A stretch of 64,000 bases of DNA from Algoriphagus machipongonensis (lineage in GTDB: Bacteria > Bacteroidota > Bacteroidia > Cytophagales > Cyclobacteriaceae), in the NCBI RefSeq assembly GCF_000166275.1, contig NZ_CM001023.1, positions 1,011,001-1,075,000 of the forward strand, given 5' to 3'. Both the position numbers and the translations under genes were made by a program. Each line of letters opens with the position of its first letter. The first letter of the stretch is position 1. The notes below the pieces were generated by a model that saw only the letters and a program-made list of their open reading frames with translations, had not been told where the DNA came from and searched no databases. Of this stretch, positions 38,690 through 52,091 are shown piece after piece.

Positions 38690-39022
38690 TTATAGTGTTG
38701 TGATGTCTTGTAAGGTGGTTAGAGCTATTTTCAATTCATCACTGGAAATCTCGCCTACTTTTTCGATCAACCTTTTTTTGGATATCGATCGAATATGAAA
38801 AACCAAGAGTTCAGACTCCAGTTTCAGCCCGTTTTTGGTAGATGGTTTCAAAATTGGATTTCCTTGATAGTTTTTGATTTTGGTAGTCAAAGGAGCAGTG
38901 ATAACCACTTGGAGAAATTTATTCATCAAGTTTCCACTTAAGATGACTACCGGTCTTCTTCCAGCTTGTTCCGATCCTACCGATGGATTCAGATCAGACA
39001 TCCAGATCTCACCCTGCTTCAT
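38690..39022 (-). CDS. PemK/MazF-family toxin
   Basis: A 110-residue endoribonuclease-type toxin. It starts MKQGEIWMSDLNPSVGSEQ and has GRRPVVILSG and APLTTK, the beta-barrel signatures of MazF/PemK. Length is typical. It overlaps the antitoxin gene by 14 nt. Members cut mRNA at short motifs; the target sequence is unknown. Confidence 0.9.
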   Translation of the reverse strand: MKQGEIWMSDLNPSVGSEQAGRRPVVILSGNLMNKFLQVVITAPLTTKIKNYQGNPILKPSTKNGLKLESELLVFHIRSISKKRLIEKVGEISSDELKIALTTLQDITTL

Positions 39023-39331: not shown

Positions 39332-40141
39332 TTAAAGCCTTGCAATAAATTGGAAATAGGAGGAATTCCATTTTATCTTCTCCGGCTTTTGCTCAAAAAG
39401 TCCAAAAACAGTGGAACCTGAGCCGGACATGGAGGCATAAAAAGCTCCCATTTGATAAAGCTGATTTTTGACTTCAGCAATCTCAGGATGATTCTCAAAA
39501 ATACTCGGTTCAAAATCGTTTTTCAATTCTGCTTTCCATCTGGAAGTATCCTTCAAAACCTCTTTCAAAGCAATCTCCGATTTTTTAGGCTTGATACCTG
39601 CATAGGCTTCTTTGGTGCCAATATGAATTCCAGGATTAATGAGTAAAAGGTACTTTCCTTCAAGATTGATAGCTATGTCTTCTAGGATTTCACCTCTTCC
39701 TGTTGCGATTTTAGGTTTGTTTTCAATAAAGAATGGACAATCACTCCCCAATTTCAGAGCGTACTCTTCTAAAAAGAAATCGTCTAGAATCAGATCAAAT
39801 AGATTGTTCATAGTATTCAAAGCAAAAGCAGCGTCTGCTGATCCTCCACCCAATCCTGCACCCATTGGAATGTTTTTATGCAAATGAATTTGAACTTGAG
39901 GAAGGTTTGGGAAATCTTTCTTTAAAAGTTGATATGCTTTATTGATCAGGTTATCCTTTTGATCTCCGGGGATCGGTAGCCCAGTGCTTTGAAAGATGGA
40001 CTTTTTAGGATGTGTGATAATTTCCAATGCATCAAACAAAGGGATGGGGTAAAAGCAGCTCTCTATATTATGGAAGCCGTCACTTCTCTTAGAAGTAATC
40101 TGTAATCCTAGGTTGATTTTAGCGTTTGGAAAGCAAATCAT
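39332..40141 (-). CDS. ispE: 4-diphosphocytidyl-2-C-methyl-D-erythritol kinase
   Basis: A 269-residue GHMP kinase of the MEP isoprenoid pathway. PNAKINLGLQI at the N-terminus, the ATP loop PMGAGLGGGSADA (92-104) and MSGSGSTVFGLF near the C-terminus are all present. I chose ATG 40141 (MICFPNAKIN), since 7 extra residues from 40162 are not conserved. It works in the same pathway as ispH at 18790. Confidence 0.93.
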   Translation of the reverse strand: MICFPNAKINLGLQITSKRSDGFHNIESCFYPIPLFDALEIITHPKKSIFQSTGLPIPGDQKDNLINKAYQLLKKDFPNLPQVQIHLHKNIPMGAGLGGGSADAAFALNTMNNLFDLILDDFFLEEYALKLGSDCPFFIENKPKIATGRGEILEDIAINLEGKYLLLINPGIHIGTKEAYAGIKPKKSEIALKEVLKDTSRWKAELKNDFEPSIFENHPEIAEVKNQLYQMGAFYASMSGSGSTVFGLFEQKPEKIKWNSSYFQFIARL

Positions 40142-40162
40142 GTAGTATGAGGGTTTATCCAA

Positions 40163-40454
40163 AAATAGTGCATAATGATAAAAGCAGACAAAGGTTTTAT
40201 TTTAAAAATCTGTCGAATTAGGCCTTTTATTAAAAAAATGAGAGGTTTTAATTGAATTCATTTGATAAGAGTTAATTTTTTTTGAATTTTTCACGAAATA
40301 TTGAAATCAGTACAAAATTTCGAAAATTGAAAAAATGACAAATCTATTTCCTTAAAAACGGGGTGATAGAGGTGTTTAGCCATATTAAAGTTTAAAAAAT
40401 TTAATTTTACCTATAGAAAATTTCTAGCTATAGGCTTGATGGTAAAATTAAATA
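40163..40454. other. AT-rich intergenic region between divergent ispE and ilvD leader
   Basis: About 290 bp with no coding potential. It must hold the ispE promoter, though no exact TAnnTTTG box is seen on the minus strand. The only clear structure is the nested palindrome at 40399-40453. Confidence 0.6.
40399..40453. repeat. Nested palindrome just upstream of the ilv promoter
   Basis: Perfect 13-bp outer arms (40399-40411 and 40441-40453) enclose a second pair CCTATAG (40410-40416) and CTATAGG (40428-40434). The right end touches the -33 box of the ilv promoter, so it may be a regulator-binding site. Confidence 0.6.
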
Positions 40455-40485
40455 TTGTAAGTCTGAAAATTCGGTTTTAAGTTTG
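40455..40485 (+). promoter_or_regulatory. Promoter of the ilv-leu operon
   Basis: TTG (40455-40457) is followed after 20 bp by TAAGTTTG (40478-40485), a close match to the Bacteroidota consensus. Transcription would begin near 40492, some 35 nt before the leader peptide. Confidence 0.75.
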
Positions 40486-40526
40486 TCATGTAGTTCATAT
40501 CGAATACACAAAAAAACGACATAAAA

Positions 40527-40577
40527 ATGTATCAAGTAGTCATTTTGCTAAGCTTAATTATTCTCATTGGATGTTAA
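40527..40577 (+). CDS. ilv-leu leader peptide, rich in branched-chain residues
   Basis: A 16-codon reading frame, MYQVVILLSLIILIGC, preceded by an A-rich tract that suits Bacteroidota initiation. Ten of 16 residues are Val (2), Leu (4) or Ile (4), exactly the end products of the operon downstream. It ends 3 nt before the first pairing segment of the attenuator, so a ribosome at the stop codon would cover that segment. The composition, position and spacing make it an attenuation leader. A free small membrane peptide is a less likely alternative. Confidence 0.85.
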   Translation: MYQVVILLSLIILIGC

Positions 40578-40579
40578 AG

Positions 40580-40652
40580 GTGAGGCACTAGACTATTTAT
40601 AAAAAACTATACAAATCTTAAGTGCCTCACTAAACCTGAGGCACTTTTTTTT
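40580..40652 (+). promoter_or_regulatory. Transcription attenuator: antiterminator/terminator switch
   Basis: Three segments: 1 = GTGAGGCACT (40580-40589), 2 = AAGTGCCTCAC (40620-40630), 3 = TGAGGCACTT (40637-40646). Segment 2 can pair over 10 bp with 1 (antiterminator) or with 3 (terminator), not both. The 2:3 hairpin has a 7-nt loop and ends in eight T (40645-40652), 10 nt before the ilvD ATG. Confidence 0.88.
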
Positions 40653-40662
40653 ACACTCTATT

Positions 40663-42342
40663 ATGACCCTGAAAAAACACAGTTGGGAAATCAGCGACAA
40701 TTCGGAGCATCCGGCTGGGATGGCTATGTTGTATGCCACCGGAATGAGCGATAAAAAGATGAAACAGCCATTTGTAGGGATAGCGAGTTGCGGCTATGAA
40801 AGTAATCCCTGCAATATGCATTTGAACGACTTTGCCGGTCTGATCAAAGCTTCTTCACAAGAGCAAGATCTGACCGGTTTAGTTTTTAATACCATTGGTA
40901 TTTCTGACGGAACCACGATGGGAACCTTGGGGATGCGTTATTCACTGGTTTCTAGGGAGATAATTGCTGATTCTATAGAGTCTTTTATCATAGGGCATTC
41001 ATTTGATGCTTGTATTTCTGTTGCAGGATGTGACAAGAATATGCCTGGTGCATTGATGGGGATGATCCGTACTAACAGACCTTCTATTTTGGTGTATGGA
41101 GGAACGATAGCCTCTGGACATTATAAGGGAGAAAAGCTAAATATCGTTTCGGCATTTGAAGCCTTTGGAAAGCGAGTGAATGGAAACATTTCTGATGAAG
41201 ATTATGATGGTGTCATCAGAAACGCATGTCCAGGAAAAGGAGCTTGTGGAGGTATGTATACTGCCAATACCATGTCTTCAGCAATTGAAGCGATGGGAAT
41301 GTCATTGCCTTACTCCTCTTCTTATCCGGCAAACTCTCCAGAAAAATTGAGGGAGTGTGGAGAAGTGAATAAATATATGAGAATCCTTTTAGAAAAGGAT
41401 TTGAAACCTAGTGATATCATCACTAGAAAAAGTATTGAAAATGCAGTAACCGTAGCAATTGCCTTAGGTGGTAGTACCAATGCGGTAATGCATATCATTG
41501 CGATCGCCCGAACTGCCGGTGTAGATTTTACCATTGAGGATTTTAAAGCAATCAATGCAAAAACTCCAATGATTGGTGATTTCAAACCTTCTGGAAAATT
41601 CATGATGGAAGACCTTCACGAACAAGGTGGACTTCCTGCCTTTATGAAGTATATGTTGCAGAATGGGTTCATTCATGGAGATTGCTTAACTGTGACTGGA
41701 AAGACGGTTGCAGAAAACCTTGAGAATATTGAACCTGTGACTCCATCGATGGTGAATGTTATTCATCCTTTGGAAACGCCGATAAAAGCAACGGGTCATT
41801 TATGTGTGCTTTCAGGAAATCTTGCTCCAGAAGGAGCGGTTGCCAAAATTACAGGTAAAGAAGGAAGTTCTTTTACAGGACCTGCACATGTTTTTGACTC
41901 AGAGCAGGATGCCAATGATGCTATCAGAGATCATAAAATTGAGAAGGGTGAAGTTATTGTCATTCGAAATATCGGACCCAAAGGTGGTCCAGGAATGCCT
42001 GAAATGTTGAAGCCTACTTCTATGATTATAGGAGCTGGTTTAGGATCAGACGTTGCCTTAATTACTGATGGAAGATTTTCCGGAGGAACACACGGATTTG
42101 TGGTAGGGCACGTTACACCAGAAGCGTTTAGCGGAGGACCTATCGGATTGGTCAGAAATGGAGATATCATCACGATAGATGCTGATAACTTACAGCTGAG
42201 CGTTGCGATTTCTGAAGAGGAGTTTGAAGAAAGAAAGAAAACTTGGAAACGAAAAGAAATTTCTGATTTGCAAGGGACTTTGAAAAAATACAATAAACTT
42301 GTTGCCACTGCATCTGAAGGTTGCGTGACAGATAAATTCTAA
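40663..42342 (+). CDS. ilvD: Dihydroxy-acid dehydratase
   Basis: A 559-residue Fe-S enzyme making 2-keto-isovalerate and 2-keto-3-methylvalerate. Cluster and active-site cysteines are in [11 protein letters not shown] and [18 protein letters not shown], and [21 protein letters not shown] is conserved near the end. It is the first structural gene, 10 nt after the attenuator T-run, and is followed by ilvB after 4 bp. Confidence 0.96.
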
Positions 42343-42346
42343 GCCT

Positions 42347-44041
42347 ATGAAAGACTTGATGATCCGAGGAGCCGATATCGTAGTCAGAACACTCATAGAG
42401 GAGAATGCCGAAATTATTTTCGGATATCCCGGAGGGGCAATTATGCCAGTGTATGATGCACTATATGATTACCATGATCAAATCAAACACGTCTTAACAC
42501 GCCATGAGCAAGGAGCAATTCATGCTGCTCAGGGCTATGCGAGAGTATCTGGAAAAGTCGGGGTCTGCCTAGCTACTTCCGGTCCTGGAGCAACTAACCT
42601 GATTACTGGTCTAGCAGATGCATTGATTGATAGTACTCCTTTGGTTTGCGTCACTGGACAGGTAGCTTCTCATTTATTGGGGACTGACGCCTTTCAGGAA
42701 ACTGATGTAGTGGGAATGTCTATGCCATGTACCAAGTGGAATATCCAGGTGAGGTCTGTAGATGAGATTGCTCCTGCATTGGCAAAAGCGTTTTTTATTG
42801 CAAGGTCAGGAAGACCAGGGCCAGTACTTGTTGATATTACCAAGGATGCACAAACAGATTTTGGTGAATTTAACTATGTGCCTTGTTTAGGATTCAGATC
42901 CTATAAGACGAAAATCGAGATTAATAAATCAGATATTCAAAAAGCTGCCGAGATGATTGACGCAGCAGAAAGGCCTTATATTTTATTTGGTCAGGGAGTA
43001 GTTTTGGGGAAAGCAGAAGCTGAATTCAAAGCATTCCTGGATAAGACTGGGATACCAGCTGCTTCCACTTTATTAGGTTCAGGAGCTTTATCTCAGGATC
43101 ACCCAAATTATGTTGGGAAACTGGGTATGCATGGCAATTATGCTCCCAATGTATTGACAAATCACTGTGATGTTTTGATAGCTATTGGGATGCGATTTGA
43201 TGACCGGGTGACTGGTGATGTCAAGCGATATGCCAAGCAGGCTAAGATCATCCATTTGGAATTGGATGCTGCAGAAATCAATAAAACTATTCGATGCCAT
43301 CACTCTGTATTGGGAGATTGTAAGGATAGCTTGTCATTATTGACTGAGGCAGTGACTAAAAAGGGTCATGATGAATGGATGGAGCGTTTCAGAGAATTGG
43401 AAAGAGAAGAAAATGAAGCGGTTGTCCAGCATGATATCACTCCTACGAAGGTAGGGTTGACCATGGGTGAAGTCATTCATAATGTCAATCAATACAAAGC
43501 AGATGATGCGATATTGGTAACAGACGTAGGACAGCACCAGATGATCGCCTGGAGATATTTCAATTACAAAAAGTCTAGAACTCAAGTGACTTCTGGTGGA
43601 TTAGGAACGATGGGATTTGCTTTGCCAGCAGCCTTAGGCGCACAGTTATTTGATTACTCTAGACAAGTGATCTGTGTGGTAGGAGATGGAGGAATTCAGA
43701 TGACGATCCAAGAACTTGGAACGATCATGCAAACCAAAGCTCCGGTTAAAATCATTTTGCTGAATAATAATTACCTAGGGATGGTAAGACAATGGCAGCA
43801 GATGTTCTTTGATAAGCGATATTCCTTTACCGAATTGGATAATCCTGAGTTTGTCAAGATTGCCCAGGCTTATGGTATCAAATCACAACGTGTTGATGAT
43901 AGAACGGATCTTAACGAGGCGATAGAAGATATGCTGATTCATGATGGCCCCTATTTCTTGGAGGTAGTCGTGGAAAAAGAAGATAATGTATTCCCAATGA
44001 TAGCAACGGGATGTTCTGTAGAAGAGGTTAGACTTAGTTAA
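42347..44041 (+). CDS. ilvB: Acetolactate synthase large subunit
   Basis: A 564-residue ThDP enzyme making acetolactate or acetohydroxybutyrate. The ThDP glutamate is in FGYPGGAIMP, the FAD-site region LITGLADALIDSTPLVCVTGQ is conserved in two blocks, and the ThDP/Mg motif is GDGGIQMTIQELGT followed by LNNNYLGMVRQWQ. Paired with ilvN 9 bp downstream. Confidence 0.96.
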   Translation: MKDLMIRGADIVVRTLIEENAEIIFGYPGGAIMPVYDALYDYHDQIKHVLTRHEQGAIHAAQGYARVSGKVGVCLATSGPGATNLITGLADALIDSTPLVCVTGQVASHLLGTDAFQETDVVGMSMPCTKWNIQVRSVDEIAPALAKAFFIARSGRPGPVLVDITKDAQTDFGEFNYVPCLGFRSYKTKIEINKSDIQKAAEMIDAAERPYILFGQGVVLGKAEAEFKAFLDKTGIPAASTLLGSGALSQDHPNYVGKLGMHGNYAPNVLTNHCDVLIAIGMRFDDRVTGDVKRYAKQAKIIHLELDAAEINKTIRCHHSVLGDCKDSLSLLTEAVTKKGHDEWMERFRELEREENEAVVQHDITPTKVGLTMGEVIHNVNQYKADDAILVTDVGQHQMIAWRYFNYKKSRTQVTSGGLGTMGFALPAALGAQLFDYSRQVICVVGDGGIQMTIQELGTIMQTKAPVKIILLNNNYLGMVRQWQQMFFDKRYSFTELDNPEFVKIAQAYGIKSQRVDDRTDLNEAIEDMLIHDGPYFLEVVVEKEDNVFPMIATGCSVEEVRLS

Positions 44042-44050
44042 TTAAGGCCA

Positions 44051-44551
44051 ATGAAACGTTACACAATTTTTGTGATTACCGAAAATTTCATCGGTATTCT
44101 CAATCGCATCACAATTATCTTCACCAGAAGAGGGATCAATATCGATGCGTTAACTGCCTCTGAAAGCAGAATTGATGGAGTCCATAGAATTACTATTGAG
44201 GTTACCGCAAATGAAGACACGGTAATTCAACTGGTGAATCAGATTGAAAAAGTAATCGATGTAATCAAAGCATTTTATCATGAAGATGAAGGAGTTGTTT
44301 ATCAGGAGATAGCACTCTATAAAATTCCAGTTTCCAGATTGGATGGAGGATTGGAGAAGATCATTCGTCAGCATAATGCCAAGATTATTGCAGCGGAACC
44401 AGATTTTGTAGTCTTAGAGCTTTCGGGACATAAGGAACAAACTCAGGAACTTCTGGAAATATTAAAAGGCTATGGCCTATTGGAATTTGCTCGCTCAGGA
44501 AGAGTGGCTGTTGCCAAAAGGATGCATACCATTGATAGTTACGTCAAATAA
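44051..44551 (+). CDS. ilvN: Acetolactate synthase regulatory subunit
   Basis: A 166-residue protein with an N-terminal ACT domain (residues 1-75: ENFIGILNRITIIFTRRGIN) that binds valine for feedback control, and a C-terminal IlvH-like domain that activates the large subunit. The 165-bp gap to ilvC is the largest but one in the operon and holds a REP-like hairpin. Confidence 0.94.
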   Translation: MKRYTIFVITENFIGILNRITIIFTRRGINIDALTASESRIDGVHRITIEVTANEDTVIQLVNQIEKVIDVIKAFYHEDEGVVYQEIALYKIPVSRLDGGLEKIIRQHNAKIIAAEPDFVVLELSGHKEQTQELLEILKGYGLLEFARSGRVAVAKRMHTIDSYVK

Positions 44552-44666
44552 AAAAAATCAAATCATAAACCTATGTTATCGAGATGGCGAAGAGAATCCT
44601 GTGATTTTCCAAGCTGTGGAGATTTCATGAGAAATTAAACAAATAATAAACTCATGGAATGGATCA

Positions 44667-44687
44667 TTCGGAATTTGTAGTCCGAGT
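44667..44687. repeat. REP-like hairpin between ilvN and ilvC
   Basis: TCGGA (44668-44672) and TCCGA (44681-44685) flank ATTTGTAG. The central ATTTGTA core and the TTCG edge resemble the perfect hairpin at 52031-52051. Confidence 0.5.
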
Positions 44688-44716
44688 AGTTCATTTAAAT
44701 TCAAATTACTAAGCAC

Positions 44717-45760
44717 ATGAAATTAAAATTCGGATCAGTAGAAGAAAATGTAGTTACCAGAGAAGAGTTTCCTTTGGAAAAAGCTAGAGAAGTCCTGAAG
44801 GATGAAGTAATCGCAGTACTAGGTTACGGTGTACAGGGCCCAGGTCAGGCATTAAACTTAAAGGATAACGGCTTCAATGTAATTGTAGGTCAAAGAAAAG
44901 GTTCTAAAACTTGGGACAAGGCTGTTGCTGATGGATGGGTGCCAGGTGAGACTTTGTTTGAATTAGAAGAAGCCTGTGAAAAAGGCACCATTCTACAATA
45001 CCTTCTTTCCGATGCGGGTCAGATTGCCCTTTGGCCAACAGTAAAGAAACACTTAACACCAGGAAAAGCATTGTATTTCTCTCATGGCTTTGGTGTGACA
45101 TATAAAGACAAGACAGGTATTATTCCTCCTGCTGATGTAGATGTAATTTTGGTTGCTCCTAAAGGTTCGGGAACATCTTTGAGAAGAATGTTTGTTGAAG
45201 GAAGAGGGCTTAATTCTTCTTACGCTATTTATCAGGATGCTACTGGGAATGCAAAAGATCGAGTGGTAGCTCTAGGTATTGGTGTAGGATCAGGATATTT
45301 GTTTGAAACAGATTTCTATAGAGAAGTAACTTCAGATTTGACTGGAGAAAGAGGAACTTTGATGGGAGCTATCCAAGGTATTTTTGCTGCACAATATGAA
45401 GTATTGAGAGCAAATGGTCATACTCCTTCTGAAGCGTTCAATGAAACAGTAGAAGAATTGACTCAATCCTTGATGCCATTAGTAGCTGAGAACGGAATGG
45501 ACTGGATGTATGCCAACTGTTCTACCACTGCACAAAGAGGAGCATTGGACTGGTGGAAGCCTTTTAGAGATGCTACAAAGCCAGTATTTGAAGATTTGTA
45601 TAATAGTGTGAAAACTGGTCAAGAAGCACAAAAATCAATCGACTCAAATTCTAAAGAGGATTACAGAGTTAAATTGGAAGCTGAATTGAAAGAATTGAGA
45701 GATTCTGAAATGTGGCAAGCAGGTGCTGTCGTCAGACAATTGAGACCAGAGAACAATTAA
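44717..45760 (+). CDS. ilvC: Ketol-acid reductoisomerase
   Basis: A 347-residue class I-size enzyme that isomerises and reduces acetolactate with NADPH. The nucleotide loop is LGYGVQGPGQALNLKDNG (about 36-53) followed by VGQRKGSKTW, whose Arg and Lys suggest NADPH use. SHGFGVTY and the metal-site helix ETDFYREVTSDLTGERG are present. It follows the only long gap within the ilv half of the operon. Confidence 0.95.
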   Translation: MKLKFGSVEENVVTREEFPLEKAREVLKDEVIAVLGYGVQGPGQALNLKDNGFNVIVGQRKGSKTWDKAVADGWVPGETLFELEEACEKGTILQYLLSDAGQIALWPTVKKHLTPGKALYFSHGFGVTYKDKTGIIPPADVDVILVAPKGSGTSLRRMFVEGRGLNSSYAIYQDATGNAKDRVVALGIGVGSGYLFETDFYREVTSDLTGERGTLMGAIQGIFAAQYEVLRANGHTPSEAFNETVEELTQSLMPLVAENGMDWMYANCSTTAQRGALDWWKPFRDATKPVFEDLYNSVKTGQEAQKSIDSNSKEDYRVKLEAELKELRDSEMWQAGAVVRQLRPENN

Positions 45761-45778
45761 ACCTAAAACCCGATTATA

Positions 45779-47287
45779 ATGAGTGAAAAGCTATGGATAT
45801 TTGACACAACCCTAAGAGATGGGGAGCAAGTTCCTGGATGTCAGTTAAACACCCAGGAAAAGATTGTGGTAGCGAAAGCTTTGGAAGAACTGGGAGTAGA
45901 TATCATCGAAGCCGGCTTTCCAATTTCCAGTCCAGGAGATTTTAATTCTGTGGTGGAAATTTCAAAGGCAGTTTCAAATCCCATCATTTGTGCCCTCTCG
46001 AGAGCCGTTGAGAAAGATATCGAAGTAGCAGCGCAAGCACTCAAGTTTGCCAAAAAAGGACGAATCCATACCGGAATCGGCGTATCACCTTATCATATTC
46101 AATACAAACTAAGGTCAACTCCTGATGATATTATCAGGCGTGGAGTCGCTGCTGTCAAGTACGCAAAAAGGTTTGTAGAAGATGTGGAATTTTACGCAGA
46201 AGATGCCGGTAGGTCTGAACCTGATTTCCTTTGTAAAATTATAGAGGAGGTTATTAAGGCTGGGGCCACTGTGGTTAATATTCCTGATACTACTGGCTAT
46301 TGTTTGCCAGAACAGTATGGTGGGATCGTTGCCAACTTAAAGAATAATGTGCCTAACATTGATAAGGCTATTATTTCTACCCATTGCCATAATGACTTAG
46401 GGATGGCTACTGCCAATACCGTTGCGGGTGTTCAGCAAGGAGCTCGTCAAGTAGAAGTTACAATCAACGGAATCGGTGAGAGAGCTGGAAATACTTCTAT
46501 GGAAGAAGTGGTGATGGCGATTAAATGTCATCAATCTATTCCTGTTCATACGGATATCCAAACTCCAAGAATCTACAAAACAAGTCGATTAGTCTCTAAG
46601 TTGATGAATATGCCCGTACAGCCTAATAAGGCGATTGTGGGAAGAAATGCTTTTGCTCACAGTTCTGGAATTCACCAGGATGGAGTGTTAAAGCATAGAG
46701 AGAACTATGAAATCATTGATCCAAAAGAAGTTGGAGTAGAAGAGTCTTCTATTGTACTGACTGCTAGATCCGGAAGAGCTGCCTTGAAGCATCATTTGGA
46801 TGCCTTAGGAGTAGAATTGGAAGGAGATGCTTTGAGAGAAGTTTACGAAGCATTTTTGATTTTGGCAGATAGCAAAAGAGATATCGGAAGAAAAGATTTG
46901 ATGGGCTTGGTAGGTAAGTATATGGATGAGTCCAACTTTATAGAATTGGGCGAAGTTTCTTACTCTTCCAATGGTGAGATTCAAGCAAAGGTTTCTTTGA
47001 CAATTGGTGAGGAAGCTCATCAGGCTGTTTCCAGTGGGAATGGACCTGTTGATGCAGTTCTGAAAGCGATTGAAAAAATAGTGAAACCTCAAGTGGATCT
47101 AGAAGAATTCCTTATTCAGGCCATCACCCACGGAAGTGATGATGTCGCAAAAGTTCACATGCGACTAATCATGGGAGAAAAGCCTTACTATGGATTTTCG
47201 TCCAATACAGATATTGTCCTTGCCTCCGCTCAGGCATTCGTTGATGCGCTAAACAAAATACCAGTCAAAGAATATACGACTGCATAA
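45779..47287 (+). CDS. leuA: 2-isopropylmalate synthase
   Basis: A 502-residue first enzyme of leucine synthesis. [12 protein letters not shown] is at residues 9-20, the metal-binding [11 protein letters not shown] near 200, NGIGERAGN near 230, and a C-terminal LeuA dimer/regulatory domain (about 380-500) gives leucine feedback. It sits 18 bp after ilvC. Confidence 0.95.
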
Positions 47288-47291
47288 AATC

Positions 47292-48698
47292 ATGGAAAAG
47301 ACAACATTATTTGATAAAATATGGGATGCGCACGTAGTGCGGTCTGTACCTTCTGGTCCTGATGTGTTCTTTATAGATAAGCATTTTATCCATGAAGTGA
47401 CATCACCAGTTGCATTCCTTAACCTTGAAAAAAGAGGTGTTTCTGTAAAATACCCTCATCGAACTGTCGCTACACCGGATCATAATGTTCCTACTGTAGA
47501 CCAGGATCAAACGATCAAGGATAAACTTTCGCGTATGCAAGTTGAAAGGCTTCGCGAAAACTGTAATAAATACGGGATTGAACTGCATGACCTTGGGTCT
47601 GCTCATCATGGGATTGTTCACGTGATTGGTCCCGAGCTAGGGATTACCCAACCAGGAATGACTATTGTTTGTGGAGATAGCCATACCTCTACCCACGGTG
47701 CTTTCGGAGCTATTGCTTTTGGAATTGGTACCTCAGAAGTGGAAATGGTATTGGCCACTCAGTGTATCATGCAATCCAAGCCAAAGAAAATGCGAATCAC
47801 TGTAAATGGTGATTTGAGCAGTGGTGTGACTTCAAAAGATATTATTCTCTATATCATCGCAAAAATTTCTGCAGCTGGAGCTACAGGCTATTTTGTGGAA
47901 TATGCAGGATCTGCTATCCAAAGTCTTTCTATGGAAGCAAGAATGACCATCTGTAATATGTCCATCGAGATGGGCGCTAGAGGTGGTTTGATTGCTCCGG
48001 ATGAGACAACCTTTAATTATTTAAAAGGAAAACAATATTCTCCTGTAGGTGAAGAATGGGATAAAGTTGTGGAGGAATGGTCACAGCTTAAAACTGATGA
48101 CGGAGCTGTCTTTGACAAGGAATATGAATTTGATGCAGCCGACATCGAGCCGATGATTACTTATGGAACCAACCCAGGAATGGGAATCAAAGTAAAAGGT
48201 AACATCCCTTCTACGGATGGAATGGAAGGAAGTAATAAATCATCTTATTTGAAATCATTGGACTACATGGGCTTTGCTCCTGGAGAACCAGTTTCAGGTA
48301 AAAAAGTTGATTATGTCTTTGTGGGTTCTTGTACCAATGGACGAATCGAAGATATTAGATCAGTAGCTCAATTTGTGAAAGGTCATAAAAAAGCGGATAA
48401 TATTACCGCTTGGATAGTACCAGGATCAAAAGAGGTGGAGAAAATGGCTCAAGAAGAAGGTCTTGTGAAAATCTTGGAAGATGCTGGGTTTGAATTGAGA
48501 CAACCTGGTTGTTCTGCTTGCTTGGCAATGAATGACGATAAAATTCCCGCTGGGAAATACGCAGTATCAACTTCGAATAGAAACTTTGAAGGAAGACAGG
48601 GTCCGGGTGCCAGAACGATGCTAGCCTCACCATTGACAGTGGCAGCAGTGGCAGTAACCGGAGTGATCACCGATCCAAGAGAAGTGTTTCAAAATTAA
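47292..48698 (+). CDS. leuC: 3-isopropylmalate dehydratase large subunit
   Basis: A 468-residue aconitase-family subunit. 4Fe-4S cysteines are in VGSCTNGR and [29 protein letters not shown] is conserved. Works with LeuD, 88 bp downstream. The gap contains pyrimidine-rich, low-complexity sequence only. Confidence 0.96.
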
Positions 48699-48786
48699 AA
48701 ATACGAAGTCAGAAATGGGGAGTCAGAGTTTGCACAGATCAAACCTTTCAACTTTCCATTTTTCCAACCTTTGAACTAATTAAAAA

Positions 48787-49377
48787 ATGGCTTACGATAA
48801 ATTCACCGTTTTGAAAAGTAGGGCAGTACCGCTTCCCTCCGAAAATGTAGATACAGACCAGATTATCCCAGCTCGTTTCCTGAAGGCTACTGAGCGTGAG
48901 GGGTTTGGTGACAACCTTTTCCGTGATTGGAGATACGATGTAGAGGGAAATCCTAAAAAGGATTTCGTACTGAATGATCCAACTTATACAGGAAAAATAT
49001 TAGTTGCAGGAAAGAACTTTGGTTCTGGTTCCAGTAGGGAGCACGCTGTTTGGGCTATCTACGATTATGGATTCAGATGTGTAGTTTCCAGCTTCTTCGC
49101 AGATATTTTCAAAAACAACTGTCTTAATATCGGGGTATTGCCAGTGACAGTAACTCCAGAATTTGCAGATAAATTATTGAACGCAATCACTGAAGATCCT
49201 TCAACAGAAATCGAAGTGAGCATACCCGCTCAAACTATTACTTTACTTTCTACTGGAGAGTCTGAGTCATTTGACATCAATTCCTATAAAAAGGACAATA
49301 TGCAAAATGGCTTTGATGATATCGATTACTTGCTAAGCATGGAATCTGAGATCGATCAGTTTGAAAAAACAAGATAA
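48787..49377 (+). CDS. leuD: 3-isopropylmalate dehydratase small subunit
   Basis: A 196-residue swivel-domain partner of LeuC. NVDTDQIIPARFLK near the N-terminus and NFGSGSSREHAVWAI near residue 80 are diagnostic. Length is normal. Followed by the second synthase gene after 6 bp. Confidence 0.95.
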   Translation: MAYDKFTVLKSRAVPLPSENVDTDQIIPARFLKATEREGFGDNLFRDWRYDVEGNPKKDFVLNDPTYTGKILVAGKNFGSGSSREHAVWAIYDYGFRCVVSSFFADIFKNNCLNIGVLPVTVTPEFADKLLNAITEDPSTEIEVSIPAQTITLLSTGESESFDINSYKKDNMQNGFDDIDYLLSMESEIDQFEKTR

Positions 49378-49383
49378 ATTTTG

Positions 49384-50970
49384 ATGAATAATCAGAGACG
49401 CATAGAAATAATGGATACAACCTTGAGGGATGGAGAACAGACCTCAGGTGTTTCCTTTTTGCCTTCTGAAAAGCTTCAGATAGCAAAGCTACTTTTGGAG
49501 GAACTCCGAGTAGATCGTATCGAGGTGGCTTCAGCTCGCGTTTCTGATGGTGAGCTTGAAGGTGTTCAGAAAATCACCCATTGGGCAGCAGAGAAAGGTT
49601 ATTTGGATCGGGTAGAAGTATTGGGTTTTGTAGATACTCCTTCCTCGGTCAATTGGCTGCTAAAAGCAGGTGCCAAAGTGATGAATTTGCTAACCAAAGG
49701 ATCGCTTAATCATCTGACCCATCAACTTAGAAAAACTAAAGAGGAGCATTTCTCGGATATTGCAAAAAGTATTGCTCATGCCCAGGAAAATGGAATAGAT
49801 GTAAATATCTATCTCGAGGACTGGAGTAATGGGATGCGTAATTCCCCAGAATACACGATGGATCTGATTCAGTTTCTTTCAGAGAAGCCTATCAAAAGAA
49901 TCATGCTCCCCGATACTTTAGGTTTACTTTCGCCAGAAGAAACAAAAGCGTTTTTGCTGGATATTTCTGAAAAGTATCCTTCTGTTCATTTTGATTTCCA
50001 TGCCCATAATGATTACGATCTTTCTGTAGCAAATGTCATGGAGGCGATTCTAAATGGAGCTTCTGGTATTCATACCACCATCAATGGATTGGGTGAACGA
50101 GCAGGGAATGCACCATTGGAGTCAGTTATTGCTGTGATCAAGGATTTTACCAAGTTTGAAATCAATGTTCAAGAGCAGAAAATATACCGTGTCAGTAAGT
50201 TGGTAGAACAGTTTTCAGGTCAACATATTCCGGCTAATAAACCGGTGGTTGGAGAGAATGTATTTACCCAGACTGCAGGAATTCATGCGGACGGAGACAA
50301 TAAGAAAAACCTGTATTTCAATGATCTTCTTCCAGAGAGATTTGGAAGGGAGAGGAAATATGCCTTGGGCAAGACTTCCGGTAAAGCGAATATTGTCAAA
50401 AATCTGGAAGAGCTCGGGATTTCTTTAGAGAAGGATGAGCTAACGAAAGTAACGCAGCGGATTATTGAACTAGGAGATAAGAAAGAGAGAGTCACTACAG
50501 AAGACCTTCCTTATATTATTTCAGATGTTCTCCAGAATAATTCTATTTCAAAAAATATTCAGATCGAAGGGTATCACATGACACATTCGAAGGGATTGAA
50601 GCCAACGGTTCAACTCAAAATGAATATTTATGGAAAAATGTATGATGCCATAGCCACAGGTGATGGGCAATACGATTCCTTTATGCGTGCTCTTCGGAAA
50701 ATTTATAAGTCTCAGAAAAAAGAGCTTCCAAAATTGATTGATTATCATGTATCCATACCTCCAGGTGGTAAAACCGACGCATTCGTGGAAACGGTGATTA
50801 CCTGGGATTTTGGAAAGATATTTAAAACGAAAGGCCTTGATGCCGATCAAACAGTGGCAGCGATGATGGCCACAGAGAAAATGCTGAACATTGTCGAATC
50901 TTTTAATCAAATACCCACCCAAGAAGAATCAAAATTCTATGGAAATGAATATCGCGCTGTTGCCGGGTGA
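49384..50970 (+). CDS. Second LeuA-family synthase, probable (R)-citramalate synthase
   Basis: A 528-residue enzyme with [15 protein letters not shown] (about 9-23), HAHNDYDLS as the metal motif, NGLGERAGNAPLE, and a C-terminal LeuA-dimer regulatory domain. It is distant from LeuA at 45779 and more like the CimA/homocitrate group. If it is CimA, it condenses pyruvate and acetyl-CoA to citramalate, and LeuCD and LeuB then make 2-ketobutyrate for isoleucine without threonine deaminase. No ilvA is in the operon, which fits. A second isopropylmalate synthase is the alternative. ATG 49384 preferred to TTG 49381. Confidence 0.75.
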   Translation: MNNQRRIEIMDTTLRDGEQTSGVSFLPSEKLQIAKLLLEELRVDRIEVASARVSDGELEGVQKITHWAAEKGYLDRVEVLGFVDTPSSVNWLLKAGAKVMNLLTKGSLNHLTHQLRKTKEEHFSDIAKSIAHAQENGIDVNIYLEDWSNGMRNSPEYTMDLIQFLSEKPIKRIMLPDTLGLLSPEETKAFLLDISEKYPSVHFDFHAHNDYDLSVANVMEAILNGASGIHTTINGLGERAGNAPLESVIAVIKDFTKFEINVQEQKIYRVSKLVEQFSGQHIPANKPVVGENVFTQTAGIHADGDNKKNLYFNDLLPERFGRERKYALGKTSGKANIVKNLEELGISLEKDELTKVTQRIIELGDKKERVTTEDLPYIISDVLQNNSISKNIQIEGYHMTHSKGLKPTVQLKMNIYGKMYDAIATGDGQYDSFMRALRKIYKSQKKELPKLIDYHVSIPPGGKTDAFVETVITWDFGKIFKTKGLDADQTVAAMMATEKMLNIVESFNQIPTQEESKFYGNEYRAVAG

Positions 50971-52006
50971 CGGCATCGGCCCAGAAGTAATAGACCAAGC
51001 AGTAAAAGTAGTTAAAGCCATAGGGCAAAAATTTGGACATCAAATCACTTTCACCGAAGGTGTAGTAGGTGCCACAGCCATAGATGCGACCGGAGAACCT
51101 TATCCAGATGCTACCCATGAAATAGCAGCTGCATCTGATGCAGTATTGTTTGGTGCGATTGGTGACCCAAAGTATGATAATGACCCAAAAGCAAAAGTAC
51201 GTCCTGAGCAAGGATTGCTATTGATGAGACAAAAGTTGGGCTTATTTGCTAACGTAAGACCTACATTCACTTTTCCTTCTTTGGTGCATAAATCACCTTT
51301 GAAATTGGATAGAGTAGAAGGGGTGGATTTTGTTTTCTTCAGAGAATTGACTGGTGGAGTTTATTTCGGTGAACCTAGAGGAAGAAACGAGCAAGGAACC
51401 AAGGCTTTTGACACCAATATGTATAGCAAGGAAGAGATTACCCGCCTTGCTAGAATGGGCTTTGAAGCTGCGCAAAAAAGAAGAAAACTCCTTACTTGTG
51501 TAGACAAAGCAAATGTAATGGCTACTTCCAGACTTTGGAGAGAAACAGTACAAGAACTTGCGCCTGAATATCCAGATGTGAAGGTTGAGTATGAATTTGT
51601 GGATGCGGTAGCGATGCGATTGATTCAGTGGCCAAAAGCTTACGATGTGTTGATTACCGAAAACTTGTTCGGAGATATCTTGACAGATGAGGCTTCTGTA
51701 ATTTCAGGTTCTATGGGCTTGATGCCATCAGCCTCTTTGGGAACTTCTGTTAAATTGTTTGAACCAATTCACGGATCTTATCCTCAGGCAGCTGGAAAAG
51801 ACATTGCCAATCCATTGGCTACAGTTCTATCAGCAGCAATGATGTTTGATTATGCTTTCGACTTGAAAGAAGAAGCTCAATTGATCTCTGATGTAGTAAA
51901 CCAATCTCTATCTGAAGGATATGTGACCGAAGATATAGCAGATGGTGGACCTTCTTACAAAACTTCTGAAGTTGGCGACTGGCTAGCTGCGAAGATTTTG
52001 GCTTAA
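50939..52006 (+). CDS. leuB: 3-isopropylmalate dehydrogenase
   Basis: A 355-residue NAD-dependent oxidative decarboxylase. LLPGDGIGPEV at the start, RELTGGVYFGEPRG, CVDKANVMATSRLWRE and ENLFGDILTDEAS are diagnostic. ATG 50939 (or 50945) overlaps the previous gene by about 30 nt, suggesting coupled translation. It is the last gene; a terminator follows at 52059-52091. The aminotransferase ilvE is not in the operon. Confidence 0.95.
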   Translation: MEMNIALLPGDGIGPEVIDQAVKVVKAIGQKFGHQITFTEGVVGATAIDATGEPYPDATHEIAAASDAVLFGAIGDPKYDNDPKAKVRPEQGLLLMRQKLGLFANVRPTFTFPSLVHKSPLKLDRVEGVDFVFFRELTGGVYFGEPRGRNEQGTKAFDTNMYSKEEITRLARMGFEAAQKRRKLLTCVDKANVMATSRLWRETVQELAPEYPDVKVEYEFVDAVAMRLIQWPKAYDVLITENLFGDILTDEASVISGSMGLMPSASLGTSVKLFEPIHGSYPQAAGKDIANPLATVLSAAMMFDYAFDLKEEAQLISDVVNQSLSEGYVTEDIADGGPSYKTSEVGDWLAAKILA

Positions 52007-52058: not shown

Positions 52059-52091
52059 AAAAAACCACCTTAGAAATGGGGTGGTTTTTTT
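52059..52091 (+). terminator. Terminator of the ilv-leu operon
   Basis: An 11-bp perfect stem (52059-52069 with 52080-52090), a 10-nt loop and a T-run, 52 bp after leuB. Confidence 0.9.

Follow-up and report, generated by a model that had tools for sequence, protein, structure and literature searches.

A very probable ribosome-mediated attenuator upstream of the ilv-leu operon of Algoriphagus machipongonensis and its relatives

The window considered here, a 64-kb stretch of Algoriphagus machipongonensis DNA that is part of one 4.79-Mb contig, carries on the forward strand a run of nine genes (40663-52006) whose assignment by NCBIfam models agrees with the nine-gene ilv-leu operon of a preliminary description of this DNA. 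The following genes match their models above the cut-off: ilvD (dihydroxy-acid dehydratase, 40663-42342, TIGR00110), ilvB (acetolactate synthase large subunit, 42347-44041, TIGR00118), ilvN (acetolactate synthase small subunit, 44051-44551, TIGR00119), ilvC (ketol-acid reductoisomerase, 44717-45760, TIGR00465), leuA (2-isopropylmalate synthase, 45779-47287, TIGR00973), leuC and leuD (isopropylmalate dehydratase large and small subunits, 47292-48698 and 48787-49377, TIGR00170 and TIGR00171, respectively), and leuB (3-isopropylmalate dehydrogenase, 50891-52006, TIGR00169). The gene between leuD and leuB (49381-50970) is citramalate-synthase-like; the best model is NF042433 (E value 4e-212, 705 bits against a cut-off of 950), and the name cimA is accordingly tentative. 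The listed TTG start of leuB overlaps this gene, and the true start may lie later. A T-tailed hairpin on the same strand after leuB (about 52059-52091) is probably the end of the operon. All matches that the source genome has to TIGR02079, a threonine dehydratase model, score below the cut-off, so that, with a cimA-like gene in the operon, isoleucine may come from citramalate. The longest gap within the operon, 165 nt between ilvN and ilvC (44552-44716), contains a predicted hairpin and no T run.

The first gene, ilvD, is separated by a 500-nt intergenic region from a GHMP-kinase gene (39332-40162) on the opposite strand, beyond which lies a PemK/MazF-like toxin gene (38690-39022, reverse strand, PF02452). 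Within the intergenic region, on the forward strand, promoter-like elements are found at 40453-40485, namely TATTGT (40453-40458, -33-like) and TAAGTTTG (40478-40485, -7-like), a pair that we take to be the Bacteroidota-type promoter motif. The TTG-N20-TAAGTTTG sequence previously placed upstream of the leader is thus present, and its role as a promoter is putative. A 20-nt inverted repeat (90%) at 40392-40460 overlaps the -33-like element; as a conserved operator it was rejected, given that it has 15 paired bases in the window against 4 to 13 in the best inverted repeat of 14 relatives.

Downstream of these elements, an ORF of 16 codons (40527-40577, forward strand, ATG at 40527, TAA stop at 40575-40577) encodes the peptide MYQVVILLSLIILIGC, in which 10 of the 15 residues after Met are Val, Ile or Leu (ILV; 4 Leu, 4 Ile and 2 Val), precisely as described before, and which contains no Thr codon. 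When the 500-nt intergenic region is shuffled with its dinucleotides preserved, an ORF with at least 60% ILV turns up in 14 of 3,000 shuffles. Inspection of the window reveals no visible Shine-Dalgarno sequence before the ATG. Bacteroidota start translation mostly without Shine-Dalgarno pairing, and a title cited for the Corynebacterium ilvBNC leader reportedly concerns leader peptide formation without a ribosome binding site. Among 23 distinct 16-codon leaders, changes show no third-position excess (p 0.69), a codon-position test in which RNA pairing may constrain the same DNA; it is the composition, the kept frame and stop, and the spacing described below that suggest translation of the leader. 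The distance from the leader stop to ilvD is 85 nt, far from the translation reinitiation peak of 11-14 nt given for Bacteroidetes in the available text of the source (PMC4833913), and a reinitiation model was rejected on these grounds.

Three forward-strand segments follow the leader: segment 1 (classical segment 2; GTGAGGCACT, 40580-40589), the 5' arm of the antiterminator; segment 2 (classical segment 3; 40620-40630), common to antiterminator and terminator; and segment 3 (classical segment 4; TGAGGCACTT, 40637-40646), which together with a T run extends to 40652. The alternative pairing of segment 2 that had been proposed for this site is confirmed, with 10 of 10 positions complementary both between 40580-40589 and 40621-40630 and between 40620-40629 and 40637-40646. 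Segments 2 and 3 with the T run form an intrinsic terminator (40620-40652; a 10-bp stem and T run) before the first structural gene. The run does comprise eight T (40645-40652), as reported earlier, except that they do not all come after the stem: the first two lie inside it and six follow. Since antiterminator and terminator use one common strand, segments 1 and 3 are copies of one 9-mer, which is expected of any such design. The predicted free energies in the window are -18.6 kcal/mol for the antiterminator and -14.3 kcal/mol for the terminator. In the predicted minimum free energy (MFE) fold, a further helix is formed by the leader strand AAGTAGTC (40534-40541, classical segment 1) and GACTATTT (40591-40598), both on the forward strand, a putative protector hairpin; the ribosome-free predicted fold of the window consists of this leader hairpin and the terminator.

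The arrangement of a 9-mer, its complement, and the 9-mer followed by T is found in none of the 3,000 intergenic dinucleotide shuffles, either by itself or together with an ORF of at least 60% ILV, and a relaxed 7-mer version is found in none of 2,000; in the 64-kb window, both strands included, the three-segment arrangement occurs once, upstream of ilvD. A detector that combines an ILV-rich ORF, a terminator and segment 1, with no mismatch allowed in segment 1, is positive for one of the 62 ORFs of the window (the ilvD site) and for none of 990 shuffled upstream regions. It is also positive for 8 of 198 reverse-complemented upstream regions, so that the detector alone is imperfectly specific. 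Per-locus chance values (p<0.05 in 16 of 22 loci; Fisher 1e-16) carry a bias: segment 1 was already a requirement of the detector.

A total of 201 upstream regions were examined, of which 108, including the window, are positive. The closest set consists of 80 named loci, the best 80 of 195 relatives found by ilvD, whose product in the window is 95% identical to those of A. iocasae, A. aestuarii and others. Leader, antiterminator and terminator are present in 78 of the 80, the two exceptions (L080 and L103) being contigs with only 142 and 0 nt, respectively, before the ilvD match. In all 79 own and named loci, the 120 nt that precede the leader ATG contain a relaxed -33/-7 pair, compared with 32 of 790 mononucleotide-shuffled upstream regions; for the 72 loci with listed distances, the pair ends 30-52 nt ahead of the ATG. 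The strict form TAnnTTTG, counted for own and named loci only, is present in 35 of 79.

The other loci were picked from the matches listed, mostly one per genus at the family level. Positives number 16 of 40 in the same family (181 genomes with an ilvD match), 4 of 40 in the same order (160 genomes), and 3 of 20 in the same class and 6 of 20 in the rest of the phylum (182 genomes); at many negative loci, another gene lies directly upstream of ilvD. When counting is restricted to operon heads, i.e. regions in which no same-strand frame of 80 codons ends 100 nt or less away, 27 of 72 are positive (family 14/19, order 4/22, class 3/15, rest of phylum 6/16). The detector is blank in the other 45 of these 72 operon heads outside own and named loci, in part through its no-mismatch rule for segment 1: by eye, L206, L212 and L214 have a leader, a terminator and a segment 1 with one mismatch, and L209 has two mismatches. 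In the same family, L120 combines a 21-residue ORF containing 5 ILV with a terminator of the same type as that of the window. Two of the four positives of the order, L179 and L187, are weak (p 0.05 and 0.33, values biased in that the detector had already required segment 1). The locus sets overlap (e.g., L113/L106 and L115/L108 are from the same genomes), and 96 loci are distinct in leader and spacer. Loci outside the window's stem type have other stems (such as TGAGAATGGT, GTTGAGAAGG, GGGTGAG and GGGAAG) in an unchanged arrangement. Peptide sequences vary between groups while ILV richness is kept, and segments 1 and 2 are separated by a spacer of variable length whose sequence, past its first bases, also varies. 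Related versions with other stems and peptides are present in Cytophagales farther removed from Algoriphagus and, with a patchy distribution, in other parts of the phylum. In five loci from another class of the phylum (L213, L216-L218 and L228), a putative antiterminator arm containing GGGAAG lies within the leader frame, in the stretch coding for YR(P/L)G near the leader end, so that peptide and RNA segment are one sequence.

Among the 87 loci of the window's stem type, 751 of the 783 antiterminator cells are paired, as are 759 of the 783 terminator cells. In 9 of these loci, C to U in segment 2 is accompanied by G to A in both of its partners; the remaining stem changes in the 87 loci are mostly of the G-U kind or at the ends. 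In an alignment of 45 sequences, 93.4% of antiterminator cells are paired, compared with 25-48% when the partners are slid, and 97.1% of terminator cells are paired. Antiterminator cells changed on both sides number 12, against 2.6 +/- 2.5 after shuffling, with none of 500 shuffles as high. Counted by pairs, only two antiterminator pairs have two-sided changes in these 45 sequences, a number equalled by 79 of 500 shuffles. The comparison of relatives' ilvD upstream regions, proposed in the preliminary description as a check, therefore comes out in its favor, with the leader and both stems in 78 of the 80 named loci and with matched stem changes.

The position of a ribosome on the leader was modelled with its leading edge at P+15, the value for E. 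coli, which both the spacing and the masked folding assume. When the last ILV codon occupies the A site, the ribosome edge is a median of 0 nt before segment 1 in the 108 positive loci (range -21 to 6) and the distance is at or above 0 in 63 of the 108; all values of -14 or lower belong to order and phylum loci. A ribosome whose A site is at the stop codon overlaps segment 1 by 6 nt or more in 106 of the 108. In the window, masked folding predicts that each of the 10 ILV stalls yields the antiterminator, and that the terminator forms both with the ribosome at the stop and without a ribosome. Across the 108 loci, the terminator is predicted at the stop in 108 and without a ribosome in 105. Masked equilibrium folding predicts the antiterminator for at least one ILV stall in 67 of the 108 (own, 58 of 78 named and 8 of 29 others), and for a stall on the last ILV codon in only 24. 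The earlier proposal that a stall frees segment 1 and a ribosome at the stop masks it is thus consistent with the spacing and predicted folding of the window and, as an equilibrium switch, extends to 67 of the 108 loci. In loci without such a switch, the antiterminator would need to win by forming first, which it could do because transcription delivers segments 1 and 2 ahead of segment 3.

Taken together, the conservation of the parts, the paired changes in the stems, the position of the ribosome and the masked folds lend strong support to the core of the preliminary description, a ribosome-mediated attenuator of the nine-gene ilv-leu operon, and the locus is very probably a classical ribosome-mediated transcription attenuator of a Val-Leu-Ile (ilv-leu) operon. 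Further points in favor of this reading are the downstream genes, which belong to the cognate biosynthetic pathways, and, in the source genome, the Trp- and His-containing leaders before trpE and hisG described below. We infer that amino acid supply is sensed, through coupling of ribosome and polymerase, in the following manner. RNA polymerase would start upstream of the leader, with a ribosome trailing on the 16-codon leader ORF. When charged Val, Leu or Ile tRNA is short, the ribosome would halt at one of the ten control codons, open the leader hairpin and leave segment 1 (40580-40589) free to pair with segment 2 (40620-40630), so that no terminator would form and the nine genes would be transcribed. 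When all three amino acids are ample, the ribosome would reach the stop codon (40575) and cover most of segment 1, segments 2 and 3 would pair, and transcription would stop within the T run, close to 40652. Without translation of the leader, the leader hairpin would hide segment 1, and termination is again predicted.

The last of these outcomes depends on the protector hairpin. The preliminary description called the design minimal, with no pause hairpin, which is probably wrong in view of the potential of 40534-40541 to pair with 40591-40598 and of its conservation: in the 45 sequences, the inner six pairs of the leader helix are paired in 75.9% of cells, a count that is somewhat favorable to the helix, which was picked by hand from the window fold beforehand. 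If the same attenuator had three segments only, and no protector hairpin, an untranslated leader would lead to read-through. This is compatible with the RNAalifold analysis, which finds no consensus for the nascent part of the 45 aligned sequences, with the pairing of segment 1 to upstream sequence, which is barely above that in synonymous shuffles (median fraction 0.68 vs 0.63), and with the best leader helices, of which, over 90 distinct loci, only 22 reach p<0.05 (9 of the 27 loci other than own and named). Against it, in addition to the paired cells, leader helix and terminator counted together are 89.2% paired and drop to 26-51% when slid; in 80 of 96 distinct loci, the nascent leader exceeds the average of its synonymous-codon shuffles in stability (median z -1.26, with 27 values below -2); the ribosome-free fold is the terminator in the 105 of 108 loci noted above; and long leader helices are found in L128 (13 bp, p 0.003) and L134 (11 bp, p 0.066), the window helix having p 0.04 versus synonymous shuffles. 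One pair of the leader helix runs through A-U, G-U and G-C, with seven of the 45 rows changed on both sides. For protector plus terminator, shuffles reach the observed number of paired cells in 5 of 500 cases and that of two-sided changed cells in 2 of 500, and the number of pairs changed on both sides is equalled by 153 of 500. These predictions point, moderately and not decisively, to a four-segment design with a protector hairpin, which we consider the likelier layout, and the three-segment layout appears unlikely.

Two further explanations dispense with control by a ribosome altogether. A riboswitch, a T-box or a protein-bound leader that works without translation would show a similar terminator and antiterminator, and branched-chain amino acid operons in other phyla are under T-box control. 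However, no Rfam family, T-box included, reaches its gathering score in the window, so that a known RNA family was rejected; the seven Rfam matches with E values of 10 or less in 40400-40720 are all far below the gathering scores and of unrelated kinds. Moreover, it is the spacer between segments 1 and 2 that varies among relatives, whereas they retain the ILV-rich ORF at a conserved distance from segment 1, and we regard such a leader as the least probable of the alternatives, close to negligible. Alternatively, short ILV-rich peptides resemble transmembrane segments, and the region could hold a constitutive terminator after a small membrane-peptide gene or an sRNA, with ilvD expressed in some other way. 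The 16 nt from the terminator stem to ilvD in the window are too few for a promoter, however, and neither the change of peptide sequences between groups under constant ILV richness nor a conserved antiterminator partner with matched changes fits this explanation, which is highly improbable.

Ribosome-mediated attenuation of branched-chain amino acid genes has well-known counterparts. The enterobacterial ilvGMEDA, ilvB and leu leaders are attenuators; they share with the present locus a branched-chain-rich leader ORF and a choice between antiterminator and terminator before branched-chain amino acid genes, and differ from it in that they belong to another phylum, whereas the Algoriphagus leader has no visible Shine-Dalgarno sequence and precedes ilv and leu genes in one nine-gene unit. 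The work of Lopatovskaya et al. (2010) is said to be a broad survey. Attenuation of ilvB in E. coli is mentioned in the available text of one report (PMC10272879). As described in the portions of the sources at hand (PMC11857589, PMC10272879), the Corynebacterium ilvBNC leader is rich in branched-chain residues, has 15 residues, and is followed by an anti-antiterminator, an antiterminator and a terminator. Thus, it shares the leader composition and the antiterminator/terminator design of the window; according to the same portions, it precedes ilvBNC only, has other sequences and was tested by mutation, whereas the Algoriphagus attenuator is predicted from sequence. The ilvB-OMG and Leptospira ilvB motifs also comprise a uORF rich in branched-chain residues before ilvB, for which attenuation is proposed; as far as the available text goes, these uORFs are Thr-rich as well, in contrast to the Algoriphagus leader with no Thr codon (PMC10272879).

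Within the phylum, the Bacteroid-trp RNA (RF01692) has been described in Bacteroidetes (PMC2864571) and discussed in connection with Trp attenuation (PMC6414381), in the portions of both papers at hand. It resembles the present case in phylum and leader-peptide attenuator design and differs in its Trp codons and trp genes; the ilv-leu window has no match to RF01692. The transcriptome of Flavobacterium psychrophilum is reported, in the main text of the source, to provide strong clues for leader-peptide attenuation before amino acid operons, with structured elements before pheA and hisG (PMC9723704); phylum and proposed mechanism are the same, and the string 'ilv' is absent from this main text (PMC9723704). 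Hence the mechanism is already known and, in the text available from these sources, leader-peptide attenuation has been proposed before in Bacteroidota (Bacteroid-trp; F. psychrophilum), so that the ilv-leu attenuator is less singular than first thought. Among the matches listed for leader-peptide attenuation in Bacteroidetes, Bacteroidota or F. johnsoniae, there is no paper devoted to a Bacteroidota ilv/leu attenuator, which is not proof of absence. What appears to be new here, at the level of sequence, is the documentation of an attenuator for the ilv-leu operon of Algoriphagus, its relatives and some other Bacteroidota.

Attenuators of this phylum have so far been proposed from sequence and transcriptomes, and none has been dissected in the available text of the literature searched; the ilv-leu leader offers an example, clean, conserved and easy to test, of termination under ribosome control in a phylum whose translation initiation is unusual. 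It is quite possible, if tentative, that Bacteroidota have long used attenuation of branched-chain amino acid genes throughout the phylum, with stems and peptides replaced many times and a nearly fixed distance between the antiterminator arm and the last control codon. If so, the leading ribosome would be tightly coupled to RNA polymerase across Bacteroidota. The kept ribosome spacing makes transcription-translation coupling in this phylum a question for reporter experiments.

Other amino acid operons of the source genome were also inspected. An attenuator before pheA was rejected: this gene lies directly behind another gene, with no leader. Upstream of hisG (L192 1307-1450), there is a 27-residue His-rich leader ending in VLHHFHHSS, with no obvious T-tailed terminator and a possible hairpin followed by a run of A. 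Upstream of trpE (L233 1297-1440), a leader, MKTFANKYWWWHSYSFQKEV, with WWW precedes a T-tailed terminator according to the same attenuator logic, and a segment that overlaps the stop codon could form pairs with the terminator's upper part; the RF01692 match at this site (37.6 bits, E value 0.11) is below the 49-bit cut-off. A small SRP RNA (L233 110-203, reverse strand; RF04183, 75 bits) is encoded about 1.1 kb upstream of the trp leader.
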